Positions 1-16,052 of a DNA stretch of 50,277 nt are shown in pieces; position 1 is the stretch's first letter, and each line of letters begins with the position of its first letter. The translations under genes were made by a program, and so were the position numbers. This stretch comes from Parabacteroides sp. Its GTDB lineage: Bacteria; Bacteroidota; Bacteroidia; Bacteroidales; Tannerellaceae. The stretch lies in assembly GCA_017481945.1 (NCBI GenBank), contig JAFUOJ010000007.1:1-50277 (forward strand), in the 5' to 3' direction. The notes below the pieces were generated by a model, which saw only the letters and a program-made list of their open reading frames with translations, did no database searches and was not told the origin of the DNA.

Positions 1-3000
1 ACGTTCCGGAAGTTGTAAAGACCTGTACCTGTTTCAACCGTTCGGTTGCACTTACGACCACCTTACCCGGAACAGCTGAGTAGATTGAAATTGCGTCTGC
101 CTGAACCGTCTCATTCGCTGTCGGACTCTCTGATGAACGTAAGAAGTAACGGCCATGGGTAGAACCGGTCACATAGAACGTATGACTATCTCCTACCAAT
201 GCTTGGCTCTTTCCGGTAACTGCATCATAGAGATACAACGTACCTATGAAGTTGCTAACTCCTTCGATCGTCAAGGTTACCTCCTCCTTATCCGAAGCGG
301 CATAAACACCCAACGGAACGTTCACCAAAGACTTCACTGCATTCACTCCTGCAGCACGATCACCCGCTACGGTATAAACCTGCGGAATGTCTGTCAGTTC
401 AGAGTCAATCATTACCACTGCGTCCTTATCACTTTCGTATGCATTGGTTGCGTCATCCCGAACGGTAACAAAAGCGATGCTCTGCAAATTATTTTTCTCT
501 GCCCTGAGAGCTAAAACCGGATGCGTAGCGGTTGTTGAACGAAGGGTCGTCTTGGTTTCTACAGTTTCCCCTTTCATCATATCCGGAGTAAACTTCACTT
601 GACCATTTGTCACACCCTCTTTTACTTCCACAAAGAATGCTTGCATAGGTTTAATATCTCCTAATGTAGTACCTTCTTTCCATTCAAATTTAACATCCGG
701 AGTACCTACAACAACCGTTCCATTATCTAATGTCCAATACTTCTGTGCCAATACATCTTCATTGGCTTTTAAGAAGTTTGCCATTGATAACGGGTACATA
801 TACGGATTACCCAACAAGAAGTGTTTACCGTCACCATCTGCAATTGGATACTCCTTACCGTCCGTTGTTTGCCACCAAGCCTCCTTGGTATCAGAATCAG
901 CCAATACTACTGTAATTGGAGTCGCACCAGCTAAACGTCCAACACTATCTGCACGAGAAGAGAGAATCGTTGCTTTTGTTGATCTCAATGCTTCATACAA
1001 ATAACTCTTATCCGCTTTCGGAAGACGAACTAATGCAGAGGCATTATTAAAGCTTTCTACACTTGCATAGAACCCTTTACCCAACGCATACGGAACATTC
1101 ACATCGTTGTACTCAATACTCCAGTTTGAGTTAACTACGCTATAAGAGGTCGAAGTGGTGCCTGCTGTATTCGTGTACATCGTGATTCCTTTATCCCAAG
1201 CCTTTTGGTAGAAGGCAGGATTCTGACGGTCGTTACCTGAATTAGGAGCATTTTCAGAATAGAATATCGGATCGAATGCATAGGTTTCCTGACGGGCTGT
1301 TCCTTTCGGTGCATACATATCACCGGCAAAGACATCCTGTAAAGGTGAAGCCATCCAATACTTCGCGTCTTTCGCCATTTCAAAGTCCACACGGGCGGTA
1401 TCATATATCAAATACTGCTGGTGTCTCAACTGAGCATTCGGTTTAAAGTAAATCTCACTTACCTTATTAATATAGTATGGAGAGATCTTATAGCCACCCT
1501 GTACTGTATCGACAGCCATTTCATACTGAATGTTTGCAGTCGCCTTATTGGTAGTTTGCAATACATTATCCGTATAGGATAAATTCTCCAACTCCAACGT
1601 CTGACTTCCCGGAATAGTAATCTTCGTAAAGTACAACGGAGCGAAAGCATTTGCTACGTTATCTGAACCGTTGGCATCCACATTACCTTTATTGCCTTTG
1701 TATAGTTCAGATTCCGTTGATTGCTTCCAGTTGGAATCGTTATACCAAACGTCTCCACTGCCTTTCTGCCATGTCAAGAACTCAGGGACAATCTTGATCT
1801 GTAAGACGGCATAACCTTCACACGCATCTTCTATCAAATTACCACTACTATCATATTCCCCAAATGGTACATACAAAGAATAAACCTTTCCCTCTTCAAA
1901 TAAACCCGATGTAGTATCAAATTTAACAGTCAATTTATTATCTCTGGAATTCTTCTTTGCAGAAAGAGATTCTAACGTTCCTACCACTTGATACACATTG
2001 TTACTCTGTCTCAAAAGCACGTTTTTATTAGAAGGAAGTATTCCTAAGCTACCATTATCATTACCAGCGACTCCAAAATTGATGTCATTCTGAATAGGAA
2101 TATCAGATAGCGTTTTTCCTTGTGCTATATGACGTAAACCTAAGCGTAAAGGTACATCATTAATCGGATATACTATTCCTGGGATACCTACTGATAATTC
2201 TGGTGTATTCCATTCACCCTCTAATTCCAAATCCTGTGCCTGCGTACAGAAAGAATAGATGTATTCATTCTTGCCCTGATAATCCGGAATATAAGGCATA
2301 GCAATCAAATGACCGATCCAAAATAAAGAAACCTTTTTACCAGAGATTAACATCGGTTCATCTCCTAACAAACCTATTAAGAGCTTCTTTTCTTCGTCAG
2401 ACAGCTTGCTCTTATTAATCTGTTCTACCGTTAACACACCGGTATAATTATTTAAAGAATTACGACATTTAACAATCAGATCATGCAACGTAGTTCCTGA
2501 AGTAGTATACTTATCATACGCTTCTCGACTTCCTAAGAACCAATCGAAAGTATAATCACTTCCCTGGTATTGAGAATTCTCAAATTTAACCATATTACCA
2601 TTACCGTCTTCTACCCATAACTGTGCTGTAAATGTACGTATGTTTCCATAGCAGTTAATCATAGAATGTGACTGGTCTGAATCAACCGTTATCGTAATAG
2701 ACGGTTTCACCACAAACGGAGACTTCAACGTACAAGGATCATTCACATTTACTGTTGCGTCACCATTTGCCAAATCTGTAGGTCTAAACAAAACAACTGA
2801 ATACTTTCCATCAGCGGTTTGCTTTTTCCCCTGCTCATCGTAATAAACCTCACCTACATATTTCAAGTCTGAATTAAACACATCTATTGCCTTTAAATAG
2901 ACTATTGACTTATCACTATTTGTCCATGAACAACGAATACGAGGTATTTGCAATGCCTTGTAAAAAGCTACGACTGTACGCTCATATTCAGCCGGATCAG

Positions 3001-5416
3001 CTAATATAGCATCGACATTAACTTCCCAATCTCCAGTATAAATACCATTTGACGTGGGTGTTCCACTCTTTACGAAAGGTTTTAAATCTATAAAATCTAT
3101 GGGCTTCGTTGTTTCTGTATAATAAGCCGGTATTAAATTTCCATTTTCATCCTTTTCATCTCTTTGGAACAGATCCGCATTATAATCATTCATAGCTCGT
3201 ACATTCAAGATAATCTCTGATTTAAGAGCCTCTTCTTGTGTACTTGGAGTAAGAATTTCTGTGGCCGTATTTAAATCAGTCTGGATAACGGCACGATACG
3301 ACTTGTGTAATCCTAATTTAACCAAGTCAGGATCATCTTCCAAAGACTTGTTAATTGTTACCCAATTACCTTCTCCATCCACAAAAGCAGAATAGACATT
3401 TCCGTAATTCGAACGATCTACCGACGCATACGGATTTTCCCCCATTAATCCATATCGATACTTTCTATAGAATGGATCAGACAAATCAACATCTTCTAAC
3501 ACATTTGCATTTAAGTTCCATCCCATATTTCGCAACAGTGTCGGATAATCTAAACTAACCAATAAAGTCGAAGCTGTACAAGCGTCTTGACGTTGTACTT
3601 GGATATTTGGCAGGGATTTATAGATACGAACATCATCGAAAGCAAAGTCGTTACCATCCGTATTTTCGGCATTATTTCTCACCTGTAAATAAAAATGATC
3701 AAATCTATTTGCATCTTCAGCCTTAACACTAACCCTATAACTCAACTGCTGCCATTCAATTAACTTATTTACCGCTTCTCCTGTTGAAAATTGATGCAAC
3801 ACCTTTTCTTCTTCCACTTCAGAAGTAGAACCACTCTTATATTTAACTCCATATAAAACCAAATTGAAATTAGGATTTGTACCATTGTTATACTGAGTTA
3901 AATCCGCTGCCCATAAAACAATGGTTAATTCAGTACCCCCACAAACTGTTCCCTTAATTGGCACATCTATGACACGACCTGTTTCTAAAGAGGCATCCGT
4001 ATAGAAAAAATAGCCACACGAATTACCGTTTGTTCTTGTATAGGTTCGATCATAAAATTCATCAGTCCTATCCTGCAAAGGATAATACCATAAATAACCT
4101 TTAACCACATCGTTAGTTTCATAAACTCCTCCACGACCTTTCCAAGTTTTTACAAACTCTTCTCCATTCGTTGAAACTTTAGAGACATTTGCAGATCGAA
4201 ATAATCCATAAAAATTATGAGTAATATTCAAATATTTACCACTTATTGAATATAACGCTGGGTTTATAAACCCATAAGATGTTTCTAAATAATTTAGTGG
4301 AGTAATACTCATATTATTTTCTGCAGTAAGTTGAGACTTTTTTATAACAGCACCTCCATCAAAATCATTATATCCCACCTGTTCAAACATTTCCGGATAA
4401 TTATCAGGGTTACGATATGGGTCTGTTGAACTCTTTACATTAGACTCCAACATAAATCCTGAATCATCTTGTATCGTAATATTAAATTGAGCAATCATCG
4501 GACTTTGTGCCGTTCCATCTTTTGCCCAAACCCTCACAGTGATATTCTTAGAAACTGTTGATAAATTAATCAGTTTCCCAGAAGAATGAGTCACTGTTGT
4601 TTTAGTTCCCCCATTTATACTATAAACAAATGTATCACCTTGTTTATTTGTTCCCCAATAATAGTTTTCAGGGGTCATATCCAACTGCAAATTGACATTA
4701 CTTGCACCTGTTGGGACTGTAATATCATAAGTTTTCAATGCATTATTACCTGTCACTGCATTTAAAGCAGTACGCATATCACTTGCTTTTTTAATCACAA
4801 ATCGATAGCGTTTAGTCATAGTTGGTTCTGTTAACACAGTTGCGTCATCATTATAATGATACCCTAAACCATCCATATCATGACTGACATCACAGATCAC
4901 AATATCTTCGTAATTTTTTCCCGTATAAATAACTGTAGAAGCACCCGGTGGTCTAGACGTACATGGTGAATTAGAGGCATTACCAGAAGAAAGTCCATGA
5001 TACCAAAATAAAGACTTATTATCAGTGTTTGCTTCCTTTGCATTTTTAAGAGCTCCATCATACGTTTGTCCTTTTGTTGCATTACCGCCATCATTAGCAT
5101 CACTTTCTCGTATCACAGATGTCGTAGTCATATTTACAGTAGGACGAACCTCTCCAGTTTTAGGATTCACTCTATACCACCGAACGAACCATTCATACCA
5201 GTATGAATGATTTATCCTAAGATCTTCCACAAACAATTCTCGTTTTTCATTATCGTCAATATAAACCGTCTGTTCAAAGGTTGGTACATCAGTTTGTGGT
5301 TTCGTACCATTATTCTTATAGTTTATCGTGTACGTTTTTTGTCCCCACCCCACTGTACTACTACAGCACAGCAGACAAACGATACCTACTATATATTTTG
5401 CTATGTTTCGTTTCAT
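1..5416 (-). CDS. Giant secreted fimbria-locus surface protein, C-terminus cut by window edge
   Basis: The reading frame is open from the ATG at 5416 to the left edge (1,805 codons, no stop in the window). The start is clear: an AAAAGGAGGT ribosome-binding site lies just upstream, and the previous gene ends 14 bp away. Residues 1-26 are a signal peptide (MKRNIAKY, then a hydrophobic stretch ending GWGQ). Around residue 590 there is a GNDFAFDDVRI segment, typical of jelly-roll carbohydrate-binding-like modules in large Bacteroidetes surface proteins. The last visible residues (IYSAVPGKVVVSA, then VQVFTTSG) look like the beginning of a type IX secretion (Por) sorting domain, so only a few dozen residues are probably missing. 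As the last gene of a type V fimbrial operon it may be a tip adhesin or other associated surface protein. That role is inferred from position. No von Willebrand A domain was recognised. Confidence 0.8.
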   Translation of the reverse strand, partial: MKRNIAKYIVGIVCLLCCSSTVGWGQKTYTINYKNNGTKPQTDVPTFEQTVYIDDNEKRELFVEDLRINHSYWYEWFVRWYRVNPKTGEVRPTVNMTTTSVIRESDANDGGNATKGQTYDGALKNAKEANTDNKSLFWYHGLSSGNASNSPCTSRPPGASTVIYTGKNYEDIVICDVSHDMDGLGYHYNDDATVLTEPTMTKRYRFVIKKASDMRTALNAVTGNNALKTYDITVPTGASNVNLQLDMTPENYYWGTNKQGDTFVYSINGGTKTTVTHSSGKLINLSTVSKNITVRVWAKDGTAQSPMIAQFNITIQDDSGFMLESNVKSSTDPYRNPDNYPEMFEQVGYNDFDGGAVIKKSQLTAENNMSITPLNYLETSYGFINPALYSISGKYLNITHNFYGLFRSANVSKVSTNGEEFVKTWKGRGGVYETNDVVKGYLWYYPLQDRTDEFYDRTYTRTNGNSCGYFFYTDASLETGRVIDVPIKGTVCGGTELTIVLWAADLTQYNNGTNPNFNLVLYGVKYKSGSTSEVEEEKVLHQFSTGEAVNKLIEWQQLSYRVSVKAEDANRFDHFYLQVRNNAENTDGNDFAFDDVRIYKSLPNIQVQRQDACTASTLLVSLDYPTLLRNMGWNLNANVLEDVDLSDPFYRKYRYGLMGENPYASVDRSNYGNVYSAFVDGEGNWVTINKSLEDDPDLVKLGLHKSYRAVIQTDLNTATEILTPSTQEEALKSEIILNVRAMNDYNADLFQRDEKDENGNLIPAYYTETTKPIDFIDLKPFVKSGTPTSNGIYTGDWEVNVDAILADPAEYERTVVAFYKALQIPRIRCSWTNSDKSIVYLKAIDVFNSDLKYVGEVYYDEQGKKQTADGKYSVVLFRPTDLANGDATVNVNDPCTLKSPFVVKPSITITVDSDQSHSMINCYGNIRTFTAQLWVEDGNGNMVKFENSQYQGSDYTFDWFLGSREAYDKYTTSGTTLHDLIVKCRNSLNNYTGVLTVEQINKSKLSDEEKKLLIGLLGDEPMLISGKKVSLFWIGHLIAMPYIPDYQGKNEYIYSFCTQAQDLELEGEWNTPELSVGIPGIVYPINDVPLRLGLRHIAQGKTLSDIPIQNDINFGVAGNDNGSLGILPSNKNVLLRQSNNVYQVVGTLESLSAKKNSRDNKLTVKFDTTSGLFEEGKVYSLYVPFGEYDSSGNLIEDACEGYAVLQIKIVPEFLTWQKGSGDVWYNDSNWKQSTESELYKGNKGNVDANGSDNVANAFAPLYFTKITIPGSQTLELENLSYTDNVLQTTNKATANIQYEMAVDTVQGGYKISPYYINKVSEIYFKPNAQLRHQQYLIYDTARVDFEMAKDAKYWMASPLQDVFAGDMYAPKGTARQETYAFDPIFYSENAPNSGNDRQNPAFYQKAWDKGITMYTNTAGTTSTSYSVVNSNWSIEYNDVNVPYALGKGFYASVESFNNASALVRLPKADKSYLYEALRSTKATILSSRADSVGRLAGATPITVVLADSDTKEAWWQTTDGKEYPIADGDGKHFLLGNPYMYPLSMANFLKANEDVLAQKYWTLDNGTVVVGTPDVKFEWKEGTTLGDIKPMQAFFVEVKEGVTNGQVKFTPDMMKGETVETKTTLRSTTATHPVLALRAEKNNLQSIAFVTVRDDATNAYESDKDAVVMIDSELTDIPQVYTVAGDRAAGVNAVKSLVNVPLGVYAASDKEEVTLTIEGVSNFIGTLYLYDAVTGKSQALVGDSHTFYVTGSTHGRYFLRSSESPTANETVQADAISIYSAVPGKVVVSATERLKQVQVFTTSGT

Positions 5417-5430
5417 ACGTTACCTCCTTT

Positions 5431-7044
5431 TCAATTTGTGGATTGTTGTTCTGATTTCTTATTTTGGATACGGATTGTATAAGGGATCTCGATCTCATTC
5501 TGTCCTTCGTTATAAAGAACTATCAAAGTCAATCGGATTTCCGCAGAAGCATAGTTTGCTAACTCTTGGGTACGAATCGTAAACGAACCGGAGTCGTCCC
5601 CTTTTTCAACAAATGAAATAGGATAGCTTGCAGAACTACAATCTATTACATTGTTATTATCATCAATAAGCAGTTTGTCATCATTATTGACAAGTGTAAT
5701 ACTACTATATTTTGCACTTCCAATCGCTGTATCTCCTACATATCGGATTTTCCAACCATCTCGTGCAGAAGTCAATTTATATTTAATCGTTAATTCACCC
5801 GGTGTCAGGTTTCCCTCACTTGGATAAGTCACCGGAGTTAGAACTTGTACATTAGCCTCTCCACCAAACAGTACCTCCGTTGGATAAACACCGATCGGAA
5901 TCCGTTGAGAACCAAATGTCAATTTTGTTGTTAGATCCGTCAGCAAAAGCGGTATCTCCAATAAATCGTTTCGACGAACGAAATAGAAGTCAGTCGCACT
6001 GGTCGTTGTTACTTCCCCATTTGCTCCGCTTCTACCTATTGTAATCGCCATACTGCTTCTTTCCGTCTCCGAATGAAGTCTTGATTCATCGACATAACAG
6101 GTTGGAAGTACTGTCCATTCAGTTGTATTTGGTACAATGGTGACCCCATTTTCTCCTAAATTCAAAGCATAACTCTTAGTGTAATCAAGTACCTCCGTAG
6201 GAAACGAAGGGCCCCGATGTTCATACTGATAATCATCAAATCCCTTAGCAAACTCTAAGTATTTATCACCTACTCCATTCTCTCCTACCGTTTCATACGG
6301 TTTCAGATAGAGTGGTCTGTTTTCTTGAAACTTTCCAATGGTTATCTGGTTTATGGTTACATTCTCTGTCAATGCATTCTGCACCTTCACCCGTACTTTA
6401 CCTATCATACGAATCAGAGGAATTGAGAATTCATTATCGGTTGCCTTCATGGTCCAGGTATACCCATAACTACTCATCGGAATCAGTTGTTTTTGATCCC
6501 CATTAAACTTGCTATCAATATTCCCTACCTGAACGGCTAAAGTCTTTAACTCATCCTCTGTACAAGGGGTTACCGTTGAACTTCCGATTATATAATCCAC
6601 AACGGCAGTTCCATCCTTCAACTTCTCTAAGTTATCTAAATTTGCAAACGCATAGAAGGTAAATGTCTCTCCGATTGGGAACGTCATTTGTATGTCTGTT
6701 TCCGAGTCCTCATCATTGGCATTATACCCTGGCATATTAAAGCTACCTATATAATCCTCTAACTGTCCGTTACTGTTGTAAGCCACTACTAACCAGTCAG
6801 AGATGTTTCGTTCATACTTATCTTCATTTTCCCAACCACTGGGTTTCACCGTATCCGACTCCTCATCCGCTTTGGTTACTGAATGCATTCCACCGGAGCT
6901 TTGCAAAGAGATGGTTACGGTACAGTATTTCACTTCTGCGGGTTGGTCGGAAAAATCATCGCTACACGCAAATAAAAGCAGTCCAAGCAGTAGTTTAATA
7001 GCTACTGCTGCTGCTCGATAGATTGAATTATGGAATTGCATCAT
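5431..7044 (-). CDS. Fimbrillin-like accessory lipoprotein (type V pilus minor subunit)
   Basis: This is a 537-aa exported lipoprotein. The signal peptide ends in a lipobox (LLFAC) with the lipidated cysteine at residue 27, followed by SDD. The segment around residues 80-130 (ISDWLVVAYNSNGQLEDYI, then TFTFYAFANL) has the first-strand pattern of the FimA/Mfa fimbrillin fold, in which a transthyretin-like N-domain precedes a second beta domain. It lies 37 bp downstream of the anchor gene and 14 bp upstream of the giant surface protein, so all are probably one transcript. By analogy with the accessory subunits of Porphyromonas fimbriae it would sit at or near the fibre tip. Which accessory subunit it matches cannot be decided from sequence alone. 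Confidence 0.78.
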   Translation of the reverse strand: MMQFHNSIYRAAAVAIKLLLGLLLFACSDDFSDQPAEVKYCTVTISLQSSGGMHSVTKADEESDTVKPSGWENEDKYERNISDWLVVAYNSNGQLEDYIGSFNMPGYNANDEDSETDIQMTFPIGETFTFYAFANLDNLEKLKDGTAVVDYIIGSSTVTPCTEDELKTLAVQVGNIDSKFNGDQKQLIPMSSYGYTWTMKATDNEFSIPLIRMIGKVRVKVQNALTENVTINQITIGKFQENRPLYLKPYETVGENGVGDKYLEFAKGFDDYQYEHRGPSFPTEVLDYTKSYALNLGENGVTIVPNTTEWTVLPTCYVDESRLHSETERSSMAITIGRSGANGEVTTTSATDFYFVRRNDLLEIPLLLTDLTTKLTFGSQRIPIGVYPTEVLFGGEANVQVLTPVTYPSEGNLTPGELTIKYKLTSARDGWKIRYVGDTAIGSAKYSSITLVNNDDKLLIDDNNNVIDCSSASYPISFVEKGDDSGSFTIRTQELANYASAEIRLTLIVLYNEGQNEIEIPYTIRIQNKKSEQQSTN

Positions 7045-7081: not shown

Positions 7082-8170
7082 TTATAATTCGCCTTCGTTA
7101 ATGCGAATCACCCAGTCTTTCACCTGTACTTTATAACAAGCATACCCTACAATCTTCGGATTTTCCGGTTCCGGTTCATCGGGAGTCGGATCATCGGGTT
7201 CATCCGGAACTACAGGTTCATCCGGCTCATCCGGACAAGTCGGGCAGATAATCGGAGTCAAAAAGAATACAATAGAATATTCATCTTGACGGTCCAAATA
7301 CTCCTGCGCTGATATTTTATGTCCTTCCATCTTAGTCAACAAGAGATAGTTGTTCAGATTGACATTCAAGACATCCTTTTCCCATCCTTCATGGCGAATA
7401 ATCAGACGATAGTTTTCACCATTCATCAGACGCATGGTGTTCATTTCAGCAACAGCGACAAACTGTGAACTGACTGTGGCACCTACTGTAGTGTCGGCAG
7501 CGATGTTTACGTTCTCTGTATAATAGGGAAGATAGTCAATCTGTGGGTCTTCCAACAGACTGTTGTCATAGTCCATATAACCATTGTCAGCTACAATCTG
7601 GAACGTAAAGTTATTCACGTCCATATCCTCTCCTGTTACATTCTGTAATATCACGCGCAGCTTATTGGTATTCTTTGCCAAACTTACCACCTTTTCTTCC
7701 GGTTCCTCACGAGTTACCACCAATGTATCTAAGCTATGCCAAAGCGGTTCCAACTCATTGGGCTGCGTAGCATCTGCTTCGCGCAACGTACGCACCTTTA
7801 CATCCTCTACCGTAGAGACTCCAGCGGTCAGGTCCGGCCACTCGTAGCTACGTTCTTTCAGTCCTGCCCATGTCAAAAGCTGATAGGTAGCGGGTTCCAA
7901 GTCCAAGGAAATGGAAGAGCCGTCTATCATATCTGCCTGATTAACGGTCTGCTGATAGAGATAGGTTCCTGCTTGGTCAAAAAAGAAAAGCGTCACTTGG
8001 TTTACCTCATGCGGAAAGGCATCGGCAAACTTCATGTTGTAGTCATATTTAAAAGTCAGTCGATACTCGCAAAGAGGCAGCGAGTCATCATGTATCCAGT
8101 CGCAGGCAGCCAGTCCACAGAGGGCTATAGCAGCTATCAACTGTTTACCTATACGAGCTATGCAATTCAT
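7082..8170 (-). CDS. Mfa2/FimB-type fimbrial anchor lipoprotein
   Basis: This 362-aa protein has a lipoprotein signal (GLAAC, Cys23) and the Mfa2/FimB family pattern: CEYRLTFKYDYNMKFADAF, then VTLFFFDQAGTYLY, then LEPATYQLLTWAGL. Members of the family cap the base of type V fimbriae, anchor them in the outer membrane and limit fibre length. Residues from about 315 form a Pro/Asp/Glu-rich linker that starts at a CPTC motif. The protein then ends in VQVKDWVIRINEGEL, which closely resembles the end of the major fimbrillin encoded just upstream. It follows the fimbrillin gene after an 80-bp gap that carries a strong hairpin, suggesting lower expression than the shaft subunit. Confidence 0.85.
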   Translation of the reverse strand: MNCIARIGKQLIAAIALCGLAACDWIHDDSLPLCEYRLTFKYDYNMKFADAFPHEVNQVTLFFFDQAGTYLYQQTVNQADMIDGSSISLDLEPATYQLLTWAGLKERSYEWPDLTAGVSTVEDVKVRTLREADATQPNELEPLWHSLDTLVVTREEPEEKVVSLAKNTNKLRVILQNVTGEDMDVNNFTFQIVADNGYMDYDNSLLEDPQIDYLPYYTENVNIAADTTVGATVSSQFVAVAEMNTMRLMNGENYRLIIRHEGWEKDVLNVNLNNYLLLTKMEGHKISAQEYLDRQDEYSIVFFLTPIICPTCPDEPDEPVVPDEPDDPTPDEPEPENPKIVGYACYKVQVKDWVIRINEGEL

Positions 8171-8250: not shown

Positions 8251-10326
8251 TTAAAGAATGATACTGCTGTTCTTACGCACTACCCAATCCTTCACATAAA
8301 TCTTGATCTTGATATATACATCATCATCTTCATCATCTGTATCCGGATCATCTTCACCCGGGGTAAATGGTAGTGGATCACCCAATGCGCTTACACCGTT
8401 TACCTGTACTTGATATACGTTATTACGAACAATTGCAAACTCCATAACACCCATTTGATTGTTGTTATTATTGTTCGCATGACGAATCCAGTACTTATAG
8501 TAACATTCACCGTTTTCATAATAAGAAACACCGTAGTTTTTGATCAAATTCTCTTTTGCATCAACAGTAGTTGGTACTGCAATCGGAGCAGATTCTTCTA
8601 CACTTGAAACGAAAGCACTCCACTTCAATGACTGTTGAACGTCAGCTGTCAATTCAGTTTGATCTTTTAATTTTCCTTCCAAATATGCCTTATAAGCTTG
8701 CGCCAACTTTCCACCTCTGATCTTAGCGACAATAGCATTCAATTCTGCCAACGATACAGTTGAAGAAGGAAAGTCGACCGTTGTTTCATCTGCAGTATTA
8801 AACAGATATTGAATCAACGCTTTTTCGACAGACTGATCCGCAGTCTTGAATGACAAGACACCGGCAGTTCTTAAATCCGCAGACAGATAACGAGAAGCCT
8901 TTGCATTATAAACGTCATCTACTACATAGAAACTGGTACTCTGTGTACTATTTTCAACAGCCTTTACACTACCCTCCGCTGGATCATATTCACTCAAATG
9001 TCCCGGTGTATAGGTTCCTTTGAAAACCAAACCCGTTGAGAATCCGTTTTTCTGTTGTGTATGATTAACTGTATTTTCCTGTGTATAGCAAATCGGAGTA
9101 AAATCTTCAGTCTCAGTTATTCTTTTAAACAAGTTTGTAACATCGTTCAAATCCGAAACAAAAGGATACTTATACAACTGTGTTTGTTTTTTAGCAACTG
9201 TAGTTGTAGCAGATCCTTCCCCACCTGTTGTATAAACAGCAGCAGAAGTAAATGACTGTGACCAATCAATTTCGGCAATACTTTTTGCCATTGTCCAAGG
9301 ATCCAATACATAATTATATTGAGGTGTAGTCCCTGAATCTGACCAGATTTCATCTTCCAAATACAACTGTTTTCCATCTGTTGGAATATCTGCGATCTGG
9401 CTTTGAACTCTGCTACTTACCCGTTTCAACATATATGTACCTGCTTGCATCTGGTTCACAACCGCATAATCTGTAAGCTTTACATAGTCCTGATTTGTAC
9501 CATTTTCCAACACAATAGAGTTTGCCACTTTAAATCCTTTTGTTTCATCGTCTGCAGAAGTGGTATTAATCGCTAAATCAATACGTGCAGCCAAACGTTC
9601 AACATAAACAGAGGCAACCGCCGGATTATCTTCTGTATTGCTTTCTACAAACTTGATTTCTGAAGCTGCCGGATCACCGTCAGCCTGATACATCTGATGA
9701 GTAGACATCACAAAATTAGAACAAGAAGAGACTGTAGTACCGTCTCCCTCCCAAGCTGTTGTTTGTAAATAGTCTCTCAACTGGTGTAATGTCGTAAACT
9801 CTGGCAAATTCGGTGCATTAGTAATTGCCAAAATCTGATAATACTTATTGTACTCTATCTCACTGGTAGAAAAAGAGACCAAAACGGCAGGACGGTGCTG
9901 GGTTCCGGCAGTAGCATTTCCAATTTCACTTCCTACCTCGCCTAAAATATTATTGGTAAATGTACCATAAATCTTTATATCCTCATCTGATTGAACCTTT
10001 GTTAAGTCTTCTACAGTTGATTCATCAGAAGATACAGTACCTGTCAATGTTGCAGTTTCAGAATTTGTTGGAATCAAATAAATCCATACGTTATTTACTG
10101 CATTTTCCGTATCCGAACCTACAAGTTGTCCGTCTCCGGCTTCTCCACCGGTTGGAGCTTTTGTTTCAGCACCTGATACAGATGAAATATTCACAGCCAT
10201 ATAGACACGATCTCCATTCTCCACTGGTGTATTGATATTGTTACCTCCATTTTCAATATCATCCGAACAGCCAGCGGTTAGTAACATTGCCACAGCCATC
10301 ATTGTATAAAGCCTGTTCTTTTTCAT
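8251..10326 (-). CDS. Major fimbrillin, Mfa1-type shaft subunit
   Basis: This 691-aa protein has a lipoprotein signal peptide (LLTAGC, lipidated Cys20, then SDD), as expected for type V pilins, which reach the outer membrane as lipoproteins before proteolytic maturation and polymerisation. The N-terminal domain shows VYMAVNISSV and VNNVWIYLIP strands. The C-terminal part has the Mfa1-family signature MEFAIVRNNVYQVQVNGVSALGDP, then an acidic linker (GEDDPDTDDEDDD) and the terminal strand YVKDWVVRKNSSIIL. In this family the C-terminal strands take part in donor-strand exchange between subunits. It is longer than classical Mfa1. The start is followed by MKKN and a normal signal peptide. A palindrome array lies 88 bp upstream. 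Confidence 0.88.
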   Translation of the reverse strand: MKKNRLYTMMAVAMLLTAGCSDDIENGGNNINTPVENGDRVYMAVNISSVSGAETKAPTGGEAGDGQLVGSDTENAVNNVWIYLIPTNSETATLTGTVSSDESTVEDLTKVQSDEDIKIYGTFTNNILGEVGSEIGNATAGTQHRPAVLVSFSTSEIEYNKYYQILAITNAPNLPEFTTLHQLRDYLQTTAWEGDGTTVSSCSNFVMSTHQMYQADGDPAASEIKFVESNTEDNPAVASVYVERLAARIDLAINTTSADDETKGFKVANSIVLENGTNQDYVKLTDYAVVNQMQAGTYMLKRVSSRVQSQIADIPTDGKQLYLEDEIWSDSGTTPQYNYVLDPWTMAKSIAEIDWSQSFTSAAVYTTGGEGSATTTVAKKQTQLYKYPFVSDLNDVTNLFKRITETEDFTPICYTQENTVNHTQQKNGFSTGLVFKGTYTPGHLSEYDPAEGSVKAVENSTQSTSFYVVDDVYNAKASRYLSADLRTAGVLSFKTADQSVEKALIQYLFNTADETTVDFPSSTVSLAELNAIVAKIRGGKLAQAYKAYLEGKLKDQTELTADVQQSLKWSAFVSSVEESAPIAVPTTVDAKENLIKNYGVSYYENGECYYKYWIRHANNNNNNQMGVMEFAIVRNNVYQVQVNGVSALGDPLPFTPGEDDPDTDDEDDDVYIKIKIYVKDWVVRKNSSIIL

Positions 10327-10512: not shown

Positions 10513-11949
10513 TTATCTTACAGTTTCTAACTGCTTCAGATTGTCTTCTGCCTGAGCTGCTACACTTGTTTTTCTCAAGCTCTCTAACTTCGCTTTTGCT
10601 TCGTCAGTTTTGCCTTCCAACATCAGAATGTCAGCCTCTGCCAAATCACGTTCAGGAGATGCCGGTACTTTCGTCAAGTAGCGACGAGCAGCTTCGATAC
10701 GTTTTATAGAGATGGCATTCATGGCTGCATTAAGGTTAGATACCGGATCATCCGGATACATACGAACGGCGATTTCAAACACTTCGTTGAAACGTTCGCT
10801 TCCCGGTTCGTAAGTCTGGGCAACCTGGAACATCTCGTTCAGACTCAACTGTTTCGGATCGGTATAGATCAACTCTTTCGCTTCATCTACCGTGAAATTA
10901 CGGATGGTATACTTCACGACATAGTCTGAATGACGAAGAGCAGGATAAATATCTCGAAGAATAGTTGGGTAAGAAGACAAGTTTTTCAACTTACGTTCGC
11001 GAGCATCCCAATCTTTCGGTTCGTCAGCATGAATGATTTCCAGAATCTGATCCTTATCCGGCAGTGTCGAAGCTTCAACGCGTTTCGTTAAACCAATCCA
11101 GTTTTCCGGTTCAAAATCAACCGTAAAACGGGCATCTTTAAAGTCATATAAACTTTCAACATAATTGCGTAAAGCCTTTGCACGATTTTCTGCTAAATAG
11201 GCATTGTTTGAATAAGTACCTTCCGGAGAAGCCCAACCTTTGATATAGACTTCCGTAATCGTTGCATACTGGTCGTTTCGTACAGATTCAACTGTTTCAC
11301 GAATCTTACCAAGTTCAACCGGGTTATTACGATATTCCGGATAGATCACAATCTTGTTCACCGGGAAATCTAAGAAAGCACTCCCCTCTTTAGCACGAGC
11401 TTTTACCTCTTCTACCGGTGGAGTGACAAATGCCAACGCAGGCTTCAACGGTTCCGGCTTTGCCAAGTTCACCGCAAAAAGGTTGGATTTGTCATTCTGA
11501 AGGGTTTCCCAGCCACAACCACAAAGGTCTGTGACCAAAGAGACTTCCGATTGTGCCATCCACTGGCGGAAAGGAACAGCGGTATGATAATCAAAGTGTT
11601 GTTCCTTCTTATTATATCGACGAATCGCAAAAACGTTACTATCTTGAGAGTCCCTTTGAGAACGTTCATACTGGATGTGTCGTTCACGTCCATTAATAAT
11701 CAGAGCCGGAAGGGCGCAAATACTGTCTCCCTGTTCAATCAACGGAGTACAAACTACGCTACGATTGGCGGGGACTTGAATCTGGCTGATGTCAATGGTC
11801 ATATTGATGACCAATTCGTCTCCGGCACGTTCTACCAACTTTTCTTTGACAAGGATCTGTCCGTCCTGCAAAGTCTGGGCCTGCAACATCCCTCCACAAA
11901 GTAGAGCGAAAGCAAGTGCAAAAGGTTTCATGAGTGTATAATACTTCAT
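10513..11949 (-). CDS. DUF3868 / OmpA-like fimbria-associated protein
   Basis: With the ATG at 11949 the product is 478 aa. That start is preferred over an ATG 18 bp upstream because GGAGGAAACGAAG lies directly in front of it and the signal peptide (MKYYTLMKPFALAFALLCGG, then MLQAQ) then begins normally. The upstream ATG abuts the stop of the preceding gene (TAAATG). The N-terminal half matches the DUF3868 pattern found next to Bacteroidales fimbrial genes. The middle carries an OmpA-C-like peptidoglycan-binding segment (VYIKGWASPEGTYSNNAYLAENRAKAL, given here only to identify it). The C-terminal region (FEIAVRMYPDDPVSNLNAAMNA, then LEGKTDEAKAKLESL) resembles TPR helices. It may tether the fimbrial assembly apparatus to the cell wall; that role is inferred. 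Confidence 0.82.
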   Translation of the reverse strand: MKYYTLMKPFALAFALLCGGMLQAQTLQDGQILVKEKLVERAGDELVINMTIDISQIQVPANRSVVCTPLIEQGDSICALPALIINGRERHIQYERSQRDSQDSNVFAIRRYNKKEQHFDYHTAVPFRQWMAQSEVSLVTDLCGCGWETLQNDKSNLFAVNLAKPEPLKPALAFVTPPVEEVKARAKEGSAFLDFPVNKIVIYPEYRNNPVELGKIRETVESVRNDQYATITEVYIKGWASPEGTYSNNAYLAENRAKALRNYVESLYDFKDARFTVDFEPENWIGLTKRVEASTLPDKDQILEIIHADEPKDWDARERKLKNLSSYPTILRDIYPALRHSDYVVKYTIRNFTVDEAKELIYTDPKQLSLNEMFQVAQTYEPGSERFNEVFEIAVRMYPDDPVSNLNAAMNAISIKRIEAARRYLTKVPASPERDLAEADILMLEGKTDEAKAKLESLRKTSVAAQAEDNLKQLETVR

Positions 11950-11967
11950 CTTCGTTTCCTCCAGCAT

Positions 11968-12567
11968 TTAGAATTGATAAATCAGATTAATTGCAGCCTG
12001 TGTCGGGCCGAAATAGTGTTTCTTGACCGTTCCCTGCTTCCGTCCGCAGTTGGTACAAGGATACTTGTCAGATTCTAAATAGAGATACCCTACACCAACG
12101 GTCGCTTCCAAGTTCCAATGTTTAGAAAGTAACCAAGAATACCCGTAACTGACACCAACACCGGTTCCCCAACCTTCATGGCGTTCACCTTCCGTACCCA
12201 ACCACTTAATATCAGCTATATTATATAATAGGTAAGGAACGTGTACCCCCACAAAGTGACGGTTAAACGTTTCACAGAACCAGTAGCGCAATTCCGGATG
12301 AATGCGTAGGTGCTTCAATGACTTATCGTAGCTTCCGTCGTCATTCTTTCCATCGAAAGGATTCAGACCCGCTTCGATGTCCAAACTCCAGTGACGCGCC
12401 AAGCGAAACTCTGCCCCCAAATTCATCGATACCGTAGCCCAATAAGGAAGATTGGTCTTAATTCCAACTACAGAACCTTTGTATTCGGTCAGTTTCTCCT
12501 GCCCATAAAATGACAGGGGAATCACAAACAGGAACATCAAGAAAATCAGCTTTCTCATCATACTCAT
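11968..12567 (-). CDS. DUF3575 outer-membrane beta-barrel protein
   Basis: This 199-aa protein has a cleavable signal peptide (MRKLIFLMFLFVIPLSFYGQ). Alternating beta strands end in LIYQF, with the C-terminal aromatic residue typical of outer-membrane barrels. GIKTNLPYWATVSMNLGAE, WSLDIEAGLNPF and HPELRYWFCE are the hallmarks of the DUF3575 family. It sits between the HTH-repeat gene and the DUF3868/OmpA-like gene, 31 bp and 0 bp away, so the three are probably cotranscribed. DUF3575 genes commonly accompany DUF3868 in Bacteroidales fimbrial loci. Their biochemical role is not known; assembly or surface presentation of the fibre is a guess from context. Confidence 0.82.
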   Translation of the reverse strand: MSMMRKLIFLMFLFVIPLSFYGQEKLTEYKGSVVGIKTNLPYWATVSMNLGAEFRLARHWSLDIEAGLNPFDGKNDDGSYDKSLKHLRIHPELRYWFCETFNRHFVGVHVPYLLYNIADIKWLGTEGERHEGWGTGVGVSYGYSWLLSKHWNLEATVGVGYLYLESDKYPCTNCGRKQGTVKKHYFGPTQAAINLIYQF

Positions 12568-12598: not shown

Positions 12599-13885
12599 CT
12601 ATTTTAAATTCTCATTTTGTGCCTTCAAAAGCGCTTCATGCTTTTGCTTTGCTTCCGGATAGTTTCGACGTACATATCCACCCAAACTATTATACACCAA
12701 ACCAAGGCGTTGAGCTATCATTTTCAGCGGTTCAGGAGTACTCGCATAAAGACGAACAGCTTCCGCATACTTATCTTCACTTTGGCAGGCTACAATTTTT
12801 CCATTAGCAGCTCTCTTTCGTCCTAATCCAGCGACTAATTCCGGTTCATGCGTACGGAGGTAACGACGAAAATTATCAGCGTCCACACCAAACTGAATAG
12901 CCACCTGATTTACCGGACGTGGATTTACCTTAAGACTTTCAATAGCAGCAGCATATTTTCCCGCAGTGGATTTAAGGAAGCGCTTTGTATGTGTCAAGTC
13001 TGTACCACAACCGTCTTCATACTGCGCCGGAGTTCCTCCTCTCCGTTGTAACATCAGATCTCGATTCCAGCGACGGAGATAATTCCTAAAACCTCCCTTG
13101 GAAACACCTGTCTGCTCTGCTATTGCGACAATGGTTAAACTTGTATTCCGATAAAGCTCTAAGGCCTCTTTATATTTTTCTTTTGTTTCTTCCATCGGTT
13201 CGCAGAGACGGCTACATCCACACATCTCCCCTCTCCTGCGATGCCCTATCATTGCTTCCCGTTCATGAATCTTTTTCTCCCACACATCTTTATGATAGAA
13301 ACGAAGATGTTGACTCAGTCCTCCTAAGGAGACATTGCATTCTTCTGCTATCTGTGGTAGATTCTTAGACGTTGTACGGATCAATTCAACTGCCTGGGCA
13401 TAAACTTCTTTACAATCCCGACGAACACCTCGGGAGACATTATCTTGGATTCCCAAACGTTTGCGTAATTTCTCACGCCATTCGAGAATTTCAGGATAAT
13501 GCAGTTTCAACTGATTACCTAAAGCTGTTCCATCCAAATGGAATAAACGGGCAACCTGAGAAACATTATATTGAATATAATTACTATCATTACAGGCTTG
13601 AATAGCCTCTTTATACTTCTGATGAGCGACAAAGGTCTGCCCTCTTTTATCTCTTAACTTTACTGTATTTGTTTCTATTCCATCGGTCAATAAGCCGTTT
13701 CGCTTCAAAATCAAGTCTCGATAATGGCGTTTCAAATAGGCACGAAAACCGGTTAGGCTAACATGACACTGTTCGGCGATTTGCTTACAGGGCATGTCCG
13801 TCGTCGCATAAAGAGTTACTGTGCCTTCATACTTAGAAGTTAGTGCTGTAGCCTTTTGTTGTTTTTCTGTGTTCTTATTCTCCAT
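12599..13885 (-). CDS. DNA-binding protein with six tandem helix-turn-helix-like repeats
   Basis: This 428-aa cytoplasmic protein is built from six diverged copies of one module (about residues 18-62, 90-133, 160-203, 237-281, 309-352 and 371-413; period 62-76). Each opens with KY-x2-A-x2-LY, continues with a helix-turn-helix core of the form IAEQxxVSxGGF, and ends with R-Y/H-x-R-x-L. Copies 1, 3 and 4 are closest to each other; copy 2 is the most degenerate. A Cys cluster (CGCSRLC) lies at 222-228 between copies 3 and 4. It is strongly basic. The start is 25 bp from the left inverted repeat of the putative switch, so it would be the first gene controlled by inversion and is a candidate regulator of the fimbrial genes downstream. 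No named family is claimed. Confidence 0.72.
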   Translation of the reverse strand: MENKNTEKQQKATALTSKYEGTVTLYATTDMPCKQIAEQCHVSLTGFRAYLKRHYRDLILKRNGLLTDGIETNTVKLRDKRGQTFVAHQKYKEAIQACNDSNYIQYNVSQVARLFHLDGTALGNQLKLHYPEILEWREKLRKRLGIQDNVSRGVRRDCKEVYAQAVELIRTTSKNLPQIAEECNVSLGGLSQHLRFYHKDVWEKKIHEREAMIGHRRRGEMCGCSRLCEPMEETKEKYKEALELYRNTSLTIVAIAEQTGVSKGGFRNYLRRWNRDLMLQRRGGTPAQYEDGCGTDLTHTKRFLKSTAGKYAAAIESLKVNPRPVNQVAIQFGVDADNFRRYLRTHEPELVAGLGRKRAANGKIVACQSEDKYAEAVRLYASTPEPLKMIAQRLGLVYNSLGGYVRRNYPEAKQKHEALLKAQNENLK

Positions 13886-13909
13886 TGCCTACATAACACT
13901 TGGAATAAA

Positions 13910-13928
13910 ACTTATTTATGAAATAAGG
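13910..13928 (+). repeat. Left inverted repeat of putative invertible switch (IR-L)
   Basis: ACTTATTTATGAAATAAGG is the exact reverse complement of the 19 bp at 14336-14354. The site itself is a 7-bp palindrome (CTTATTT/AAATAAG) around an asymmetric 3-bp centre, ATG here and CAT in the other copies. This is the form expected of a tyrosine-recombinase core site whose orientation is set by the spacer. Confidence 0.85.
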
Positions 13929-14103
13929 GGATAGCATTATAACATGCTTGTTATTACATAATTACCTGCAATACACAAAGCAGTATAAGAAAATACGTCC
14001 TTTTTCAAACACAAAGAAAGTATAAAAATATTTAGGAATCAACTTTTTTTGTTATAAAATTGAAGATGTTATCTTAAAAAGAGAACACCTCCCAGAAAAC
14101 TTA

Positions 14104-14133
14104 TTGTATAAAATTAAGAGTTTAGCATATTTG
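14104..14133 (+). promoter_or_regulatory. Candidate promoter inside the invertible segment, facing away from fimbrial genes
   Basis: TTG at 14104-14106 and CATATTTG at 14126-14133 are separated by 19 bp. This matches the Bacteroidetes -33/-7 pattern (TTG, 19-21 bp, TAnnTTTG) with one mismatch. It reads rightward, toward the 3' end of the recombinase gene. Inverting the segment would aim it at the HTH-repeat gene. No better match was seen on the opposite strand of the segment. Confidence 0.5.
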
Positions 14134-14335
14134 TTTTATAATCTCTCTTTTTTAGTACATACCTCGTTAACGCTTGTTCTCTCTTTAACATTCTATTATA
14201 AATCATAAGTGGTTTTTCTCCTCTTTTGTCTGAACAATAAAAAGTCTCCAAACGGCTTTTATAAGTGATTTAATAGATAGATTTAGGCAAATCACTCTAA
14301 TATTTCTCCACAGTATCCCCCTTAATAGCTTGTAT

Positions 14336-14354
14336 CCTTATTTCATAAATAAGT
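14336..14354 (-). repeat. Right inverted repeat of putative invertible switch (IR-R)
   Basis: CCTTATTTCATAAATAAGT is the exact inverted partner of 13910-13928, with the spacer CAT instead of ATG. Flanking bases diverge at once on the inner side and after one base on the outer side, so the repeat length is 19 bp. Confidence 0.85.
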
Positions 14355-14360
14355 GTTTCT

Positions 14361-14378
14361 CTTATTTCATAAATAAGG
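14361..14378 (-). repeat. Third copy of the recombination-site sequence, overlapping the recombinase 3' end
   Basis: CTTATTTCATAAATAAGG repeats the 17-bp core of IR-R in the same orientation, 24 bp further right. It overlaps the last four codons of the recombinase gene, including the stop (TGA is formed from the site's spacer and next base). It could be an alternative crossover site or an accessory recombinase-binding site. Confidence 0.8.
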
Positions 14379-15338
14379 TTTAGAACTCTTCCACTTTTTA
14401 GCTAATAAACAATCAATTACACCTGAAACCTTTTGGTTAGCCCGTACCAATTCAGAAATATCCAATTCACTTAAATAACAACGAGTCGTTTTTTCAGAGG
14501 TATGTCCCAATGCCTGACTGATAACCGCAACGGGAATATCGTGTTGCAAAGCGACAGAAGCCCAACTATGTCGTAAAACGTAGGAGGTAAATTTCTGAGA
14601 AAGGTGCAGCTTATTACCAATTTCTTTCAGACACCTATTATGAGAGGCTAAACAACCTTTATACTGTTTATAGTTGGGGGGCTCTGTAGGTAGAATGGGA
14701 AACAGATAGATACGTTTCCTATCAGTCGGTGCATATTTATGAATGAGTTGCCACATACCAGTCGTTATTTCCAATCGAATCAGTGTACCGGTTTTATGTC
14801 TATGATATACTAATTCGTTGTTATGGATATTTCGAGTTGTTAAATAGGCCATATCCACAAAGGGCATTCCGCAGGCTAAGAAGCTAAAAAGACAAAGATC
14901 TAGAGCTAATTCCTCTTTAAAACTACCCACCCTGAAAGTTGCCATCTTCTGAATGGCCGCTATTGGTATGGATCGTTTTGCTGTTACAGCCCTCCGTAAC
15001 TTCAGATTCTTAAAAGGGTATTGAGAACTACATAATAGCTCATCCTGACAAGCAGCATTGTAAATAGCTCGCAAATTACTTAAATAGGTATTAATACTAT
15101 TGGTCGCCAACTTACGGTTCTGCAAATAGGTCACAAAATCGGCCACCAATGTCCGACTTAAATCGCGAATACAGAAACGAGGGTTCCCGACAAATTTCAA
15201 GAAATGGCTGATGGTTACTTGATAAAGTTCTGCCGTACTGGCTTTTCCTAACTGTTGTTTGAGCTGGATTCGTTGTTGGGTGTACTCCCAAAGTGACAAG
15301 GAAGTATACTTTCTTTTGTACTTTTGTTTCATATACAT
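14367..15338 (-). CDS. Tyrosine recombinase, probable invertase of the fimbrial switch
   Basis: This 323-aa protein has the two-domain layout of Bacteroidetes tyrosine recombinases: an N-terminal SAM-like core-binding domain (about 30-115) and a catalytic domain. Visible catalytic elements are the beta-hairpin Lys (HRHKTG, near 180), Arg256 in YVLRHSWAS, the His of LGHTSEKT and the nucleophile Tyr288 in RCYLSEL. The usual first catalytic Arg (normally R-G-M-x-F-x-D) is replaced by Cys156 in LACGMPFVDMAYL. The gene ends inside a copy of the repeat that bounds the switch and reads toward it. That context supports a DNA invertase rather than a mobile-element integrase, and no transposon genes are nearby. 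MKQK at 15332 is an alternative start. Confidence 0.82.
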   Translation of the reverse strand: MYMKQKYKRKYTSLSLWEYTQQRIQLKQQLGKASTAELYQVTISHFLKFVGNPRFCIRDLSRTLVADFVTYLQNRKLATNSINTYLSNLRAIYNAACQDELLCSSQYPFKNLKLRRAVTAKRSIPIAAIQKMATFRVGSFKEELALDLCLFSFLACGMPFVDMAYLTTRNIHNNELVYHRHKTGTLIRLEITTGMWQLIHKYAPTDRKRIYLFPILPTEPPNYKQYKGCLASHNRCLKEIGNKLHLSQKFTSYVLRHSWASVALQHDIPVAVISQALGHTSEKTTRCYLSELDISELVRANQKVSGVIDCLLAKKWKSSKPYL

Positions 15339-15395
15339 GTTTTCTTTTTATCATTCTGAATAAAAAAATACAAGTATATAAAGAAATTAACCTAC

Positions 15396-15430
15396 AAAAA
15401 AAGGAGCTGCCCAAAAACTTGGATAGCCCC
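15396..15430 (-). terminator. Rho-independent terminator of the small lipoprotein gene
   Basis: On the minus strand GGGGCTATCCAA pairs with TTGGGCAGCTCC (one mismatch and G-U pairs) around a short loop, followed directly by seven T. It lies 25 bp after the lipoprotein stop codon and separates that gene from the recombinase gene. Confidence 0.8.
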
Positions 15431-16008: not shown

Positions 16009-16052
16009 CAAAAAAATTCCCCAATAGCTTCGTTTGAAACTATTGGGGAATT
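16009..16052 (-). terminator. Terminator of the acyl-CoA ligase gene
   Basis: A perfect 13-bp stem (AATTCCCCAATAG / CTATTGGGGAATT, 16015-16027 and 16040-16052) has a 12-nt loop. It is followed on the minus strand by a T-rich run and begins 21 bp after the stop codon. Confidence 0.85.

Follow-up and report, generated by a model that had tools for sequence, protein, structure and literature searches.

A probable invertible promoter switch upstream of a type V-like fimbrial operon in Parabacteroides

A short non-coding segment separates a tyrosine recombinase gene of Parabacteroides sp. from a type V-like (Mfa1/Mfa2) fimbrial operon; in the explanation we consider best and probably correct, this segment is a site-specific invertible promoter standing in its ON orientation. 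The segment was analyzed within a stretch of 50,277 nucleotides (hereafter the window), which is contig C11 of a 2.79-Mb genome that is 83% complete; its features are listed in Table 1. An invertible promoter switch with an adjacent recombinase had been predicted at this place, and that prediction was supported by four pairs of homologous segments in opposed orientation and by the occurrence of both orientations in the assembly of a relative, G013.

Table 1. Features of the putative switch, the recombinase gene and the fimbrial operon in the window.
Feature	Position	Strand	Details
Left inverted repeat, operon side	13910-13928		19 bp, ACTTATTTATGAAATAAGG; core 13911-13927; direct reading
Right inverted repeat, recombinase side	14336-14354		19 bp, CCTTATTTCATAAATAAGT; core 14337-14353; direct reading
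Third copy of the 17-bp core	14361-14377	+	Directly repeats the core of the right arm
Predicted invertible segment	13929-14335		407 bp; orientation opposite to paralogous locus L009
Candidate switch promoter	14012-14043	-	-33 GTTG (14043-14040), 20 bp, -7 TTTCTTTG (14019-14012); points at operon
Palindrome ATAACATGCTTGTTAT	13939-13954		Between promoter and left arm; candidate operator
Tyrosine recombinase, 323 aa	14367-15338	-	Phage_int_SAM_5 and Phage_integrase
Promoter-like -7 upstream of recombinase gene	15395-15402	-	13.2 bits
Multi-HTH protein, 428 aa, first operon gene	12599-13885	-	Six helix-turn-helix units, Pfam
DUF3575 protein	11968-12567	-	Pfam
DUF3868 protein	10513-11967	-	Weak OmpA match; Pfam
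Mfa1-family major fimbrial subunit (stalk)	8251-10326	-	NF038041, above its cut-off
Mfa2-family anchor subunit	7082-8170	-	PF08842
537-aa ORF, downstream, same direction	5431-7044	-	No Pfam match at E 0.01
1805-aa ORF, runs off contig	2-5416	-	No Pfam match at E 0.01

The two arms are complementary at 19/19 positions, and the segment they enclose upstream of the operon contains no ORF of at least 90 aa; direct reading and the ORF scan thus confirmed the predicted perfect inverted repeats around a non-coding segment. The expected tyrosine recombinase gene was found to end 12 bp past the right arm, with matches to PF13102 and PF00589, and its stop codon sits inside the third core copy. On the opposite side the first gene of the cluster does adjoin the repeat, at a spacing of 24 bp from the left arm and not the 25 bp originally given. 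The core is nearly palindromic, and when up to three mismatches were allowed it gave six matches in the window against a shuffle mean of 0.49; none of 100 shuffles of the window gave six. Since a near-palindrome counts on both strands, the six matches represent three sites. Extra copies of the core occur also at other loci: three in all at the window, L009 and L025, four at L095, and further extra copies at L091, L105, L115 and L116 and on the partial contigs L122 and L127. A scan of 13800-14450 revealed no terminator-like site, so that read-through from the recombinase gene into the operon is possible, and RNA folding of the minus strand of the segment showed nothing out of the ordinary (z -0.37). 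A separate 17-bp inverted repeat (16015-16052, with 94% complementarity and a 4-nt loop) follows the recombinase gene ahead of its neighbour and is possibly a terminator.

Matches to an Mfa1-family stalk and an Mfa2-family anchor bore out the type V-like fimbrial operon predicted downstream of the switch. The gene next to the repeat had been taken for the first fimbrial gene of the cluster; the operon is fimbrial, but its first gene encodes a multi-HTH protein according to Pfam. From direction and spacing we infer that the genes from the multi-HTH gene to the downstream ORFs form one operon, and in the gaps before DUF3575, mfa1, mfa2 and the 537-aa ORF the genome-trained promoter model described below found no site above 0.5 bits. 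The 1805-aa ORF is possibly a tip adhesin. In the multi-HTH protein Pfam detected several HTH families, and a low-confidence structure model (pLDDT 69.1, pTM 0.24) displayed six helical HTH-like units; a PDB profile search with the protein returned weak matches only, to glutamine synthetases (best E 0.47). Relatives are few, with matches in 5/38 genomes of the genus, the source genome included, and a scan of genome contigs yielded two loci. The gene precedes fimbrial genes in the window, L009, L024 and L025 and, in broken form, in L030. Other relatives, in L026-L029, stand amid what appear to be polysaccharide or other surface genes, as judged by eye from the first residues of the neighbours; these stretches contain no 17-bp repeat at two or fewer mismatches. 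The palindrome ATAACA-N4-TGTTAT was found in three segments, those of the window, L024 and L025, close to the end at which the promoter exits. These are three of the four loci that combine a switch with an unbroken multi-HTH gene, and no other segment scanned contains the palindrome. That it serves as an operator is a guess.

A second, paralogous system (L009) is located on contig C12 of the same genome, with its switch segment at G000:C12:95470-95880. Its gene order is that of the window (switch, multi-HTH, DUF3575, DUF3868, Mfa1) plus one inserted gene, and it has the same three core sites, the three 17-bp cores being identical at each locus. Exact copies of the core are confined to two loci of the source genome, each with its own recombinase. 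The window segment matches the L009 segment at 78% over 349 bp on the plus strand of both contigs, and the flanking genes lie on opposite strands; the two segments are therefore in opposite orientation. Opposite paralogues could reflect one old inversion. Between DUF3868 and mfa1, where the window has a 186-bp gap, a 163-aa gene that looks HU-like by eye was seen at L009:14479-14970.

For a comparison across the genus, 38 segments from 15 genomes were oriented with the recombinase to the left and the target to the right. Four homologous pairs were opposed, namely window/L009, L094/L095, L106/L115 (94%) and L111/L112, and all four are fimbrial (DUF3575) loci. The remaining matching pairs aligned best in the same orientation, three of them with a short secondary minus match. 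At L099 and L117 the polarity of the core was reversed at both arms, and yet each of these segments is oriented like its homologues in the alignment.

Both orientations of one segment were encountered in the assembly of G013. Contig C36 spans the operon and the complete segment and continues 60 bp into the recombinase flank, a stretch identical to contig C53 at 60/60 positions. Contig C53 leads from the recombinase across the repeat to the opposite end of the segment: 58/58 bp equal the operon-side end of C36, against 15/58 bp identical to its recombinase-side end. Both overlaps between the two contigs measure 77 bp. The simplest reading is that the reads of G013 held both orientations of the segment; that the contigs represent two near-identical loci and not two states is possible but less likely. 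For the window itself the occurrence of both orientations is seen by comparison, with the flipped paralogue L009 and with the assembly of this relative. Six contigs (G013:C36, G013:C53, G001:C79, G021:C31, G021:C116 and G016:C31) end about 350 bp or less from a core repeat, and a draft contig might well break off near a core if both orientations were present among its reads.

To locate the promoter, a two-box model was trained on 157 upstream regions of the source genome with the second locus (L147) excluded. An earlier model that included this locus in training had given the window site 10.6 bits; after retraining the score was 8.4 bits. The trained -7 consensus, TATcTTTGC, agrees with the motif TAnnTTTG in the available part of PMC7366714. 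The candidate promoter of the window lies 84 bp from the operon-side end, and its score was equalled by 60/300 shuffles and exceeded the best opposite-strand site by 1.5 bits. The aligned site of L009 scored 11.8 bits (4/300 shuffles), lies 87 bp from the recombinase-side end and points away from the L009 operon; the block around the candidate promoter is among the most conserved between the two segments. When the 38 segments were grouped into 17 sequence clusters and the first member of each was scored, the best site was placed 60-90 bp from the exit end in 14/17 clusters (shuffle mean 1.58, maximum 5, 100 shuffles), a range picked after the result of an earlier run and with 3/17 clusters outside it. 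Within all four opposed pairs the called promoter direction reverses along with the segment. The best site points at the target in 6/38 segments (window, L095, L104, L106, L111 and L114, the last with its site at an unusual place) and at the recombinase in 32. Strand margins were below 2 bits in several segments, the window included, and wrong-strand upstream regions reached 9.9 bits at the 75th percentile; some of these wrong-strand matches may be divergent promoters. A scan for sigma-70-type promoters gave one site against 3.0 in shuffles.

The fimbriae had originally been predicted to be OFF in this sequence. The best-scoring site, at the position usual for the family, faces its operon in the window and faces away from the operon of L009, which makes the opposite assignment, window ON and L009 OFF, the more likely one. 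Judged from sequence, we regard this assignment as probable and grade it below the inversion itself; because the window's own site is weak (8.4 bits), the call leans on the L009 site and on position. The OFF prediction had invoked an invertible promoter at 14104-14133 aimed at the recombinase. There is a match of the form ATTG-N19-CATATTTG on the plus strand (14103-14133), part of which is conserved in L009, but under the genome-trained model this promoter scored 4.0 bits and ranked fourth on its own strand, it is off the position occupied in 14/17 clusters, and in its L009 equivalent the -7 reads CATATTTA. It agrees with the consensus at 8/10 positions and is one of five such matches on the strand, where shuffles average 4.3; a promoter pointing away from the operon here is at chance level. 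We consider it unlikely that this site drives the switch and that the fimbriae are OFF.

Under the preferred reading, with the invertible promoter ON in the window, two near-palindromic sites of 17-19 bp would be recombined by the neighbouring tyrosine recombinase or by a close paralogue. This would flip the 407-bp segment, which would bear one promoter with its -7 box approximately 84 bp from one end. With the promoter end beside the multi-HTH gene, as in the window, RNA would pass through the left repeat into the HTH-DUF3575-DUF3868-Mfa1-Mfa2 operon, the ON state. With the promoter end beside the recombinase, as in L009, the operon would be left without this promoter and, judging from the layout, transcription would run antisense into the recombinase gene, the OFF state. 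The third core site may act as an alternative partner, which could alter how many repeats separate the promoter from the operon.

These elements can also be combined into a self-biasing switch with more than two states. Antisense RNA made in the OFF state into the system's own invertase gene would then slow the return to ON, the choice among three sites would set the number of hairpin-like repeats in the leader and with it the level of expression, the six-HTH protein, made first, would bind the palindrome at the promoter exit and feed back on the switch, and the two such systems of one genome would be in opposite states. As a joint proposition we hold this to be unlikely.

The repeat was then sought in other genomes. 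With at most one mismatch the 17-bp core gave 95 matches in 38 genomes of the genus, against 4 for a reversed-pattern control; it was present in 17/38 genomes, with no match in the other 21. An oppositely directed partner lay within 700 bp of 85/95 matches, and the other 10 fell on contigs with cores in one direction only. A related recombinase was located 700 bp or less from 80/95 core matches. Conversely, for 37/57 recombinase matches a core lay no more than 150 bp from the 3' end, and 20/57 had no core at one mismatch. Among the 85 family genomes outside the genus the core gave 11 single matches against 12 for the control, that is, control level; across the family as searched, the site is thus one of this genus. 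Throughout the table of 38 segments the recombinase gene shares the direction of the target and has its end at or close to the segment, with the exceptions of L106, where the recombinase is on another contig, and L107, where it is a 133-aa fragment. At L096, L097, L105 and L116 short opposite-strand ORFs lie between segment and target. The targets include DUF3575/DUF3868/Mfa operons as well as others. Left out of the segment table were contigs whose cores all point one way (G013:C53 and C55; G021:C31, C75, C116 and C443; G001:C79; G019:C230), the pair G002:C1:702-1259, and 19/57 recombinase matches with no core at one mismatch; the recombinase at G012:C1:983229, with a core pair at two mismatches, was kept as L126. 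Eight of the 19 omitted recombinase matches were seen as short loci (L042-L044, L047, L049, L055, L058 and L060), some of which carry more divergent core-like repeats. The letters of the repeat were absent from the papers searched, supplements and most subscription journals being outside that search.

The recombinase frames of the window and L009 are both open and 82% identical to each other. No promoter comparable to the one upstream of the window recombinase gene was found for the L009 recombinase, where the best site under the same model scored 6.0 bits. A box I stretch like ACGMPF was seen in 39/39 readable recombinases of the family (40 rows including one fragment, and not independent of one another). 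In all 39 the box I arginine is absent at both positions checked, the canonical one and a nearby one at which some other recombinases in these genomes use arginine, and a tyrosine occupies the place expected for the first catalytic histidine. The integrase of CTnDOT has likewise lost its first arginine, with compensation elsewhere (PMC8138268, available part). Taken with the 20/57 recombinase matches that have no core at one mismatch, the missing box I arginine means that neither the activity nor the partner site of each enzyme is certain.

The lack of this arginine would suit a relic, in which the segment inverted in the past and is now fixed, the recombinase being inactive or acting elsewhere, and the support for inversion does consist of comparisons between loci. 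We nevertheless consider a relic improbable, given that two loci of the genome each have three identical 17-bp cores, that the recombinase frames are open and closely similar, and that the G013 assembly has both orientations. Least probable is that the repeats are only protein-binding operators or mobile-element attachment sites: the core is nearly palindromic, as operators often are, but segments are opposed between homologues and within one assembly, and the locus genes examined include no other gene of mobile type. An active, site-specific promoter inversion remains the best explanation.

Surface glycoproteins of P. distasonis are reportedly under invertible promoters, according to an earlier report. 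The type 1 fimbriae of E. coli are chaperone-usher fimbriae and unrelated to those of the window. Their control through promoter inversion by a tyrosine recombinase (fimS/FimB) presents a functional likeness (PMC9993118; this and the following papers are cited from their available parts). Closer are the B. fragilis tyrosine recombinases that invert DNA and alter the expression of outer-surface proteins (Weinacht 2004, as cited in PMC12632263), one phase-variable locus of that species having later been tied to fimbriae (PMC12632263); they resemble the window in recombinase and in surface or fimbria-like targets, but belong to another species. The B. fragilis Tsr19/BF2766 IVp-I system also has a promoter flipped by an adjacent tyrosine recombinase and extra repeat copies, and there the number of repeats between promoter and genes correlated inversely with transcription; unlike the window, it controls polysaccharide genes, and a distant promoter is flipped by the same recombinase (PMC4747536). 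The capsule switches of P. distasonis share with the window invertible promoters, internally palindromic repeats and preceding integrase/invertase genes, and differ in repeat (GCTACTYRGNRAGTAGC versus CTTATTTCATAAATAAG here) and in target, capsule versus fimbriae (PMC12118408). Groups of invertons near fimbrillin genes in a defined gut community are like the window in logic and in target genes and were found from reads; in the main text of that paper Parabacteroides occurs 0 times (PMC11892184).

Promoter inversion by recombinases, a phase-variable fimbria-like locus, fimbrillin-adjacent invertons and the palindromic repeats of P. distasonis are thus already in print. The present analysis supplements these with a well-supported switch for fimbrial phase variation in Parabacteroides and with one 17-bp site that, with small variants, is common to many invertase loci of the genus. 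A shared site of this kind allows the switches to be located from sequence and their state to be guessed. An ON/OFF state read from a single promoter-like match can have the wrong sign, and we offer a positional rule for such readings: the promoter usually lies 60-90 bp from the exit end of the segment.
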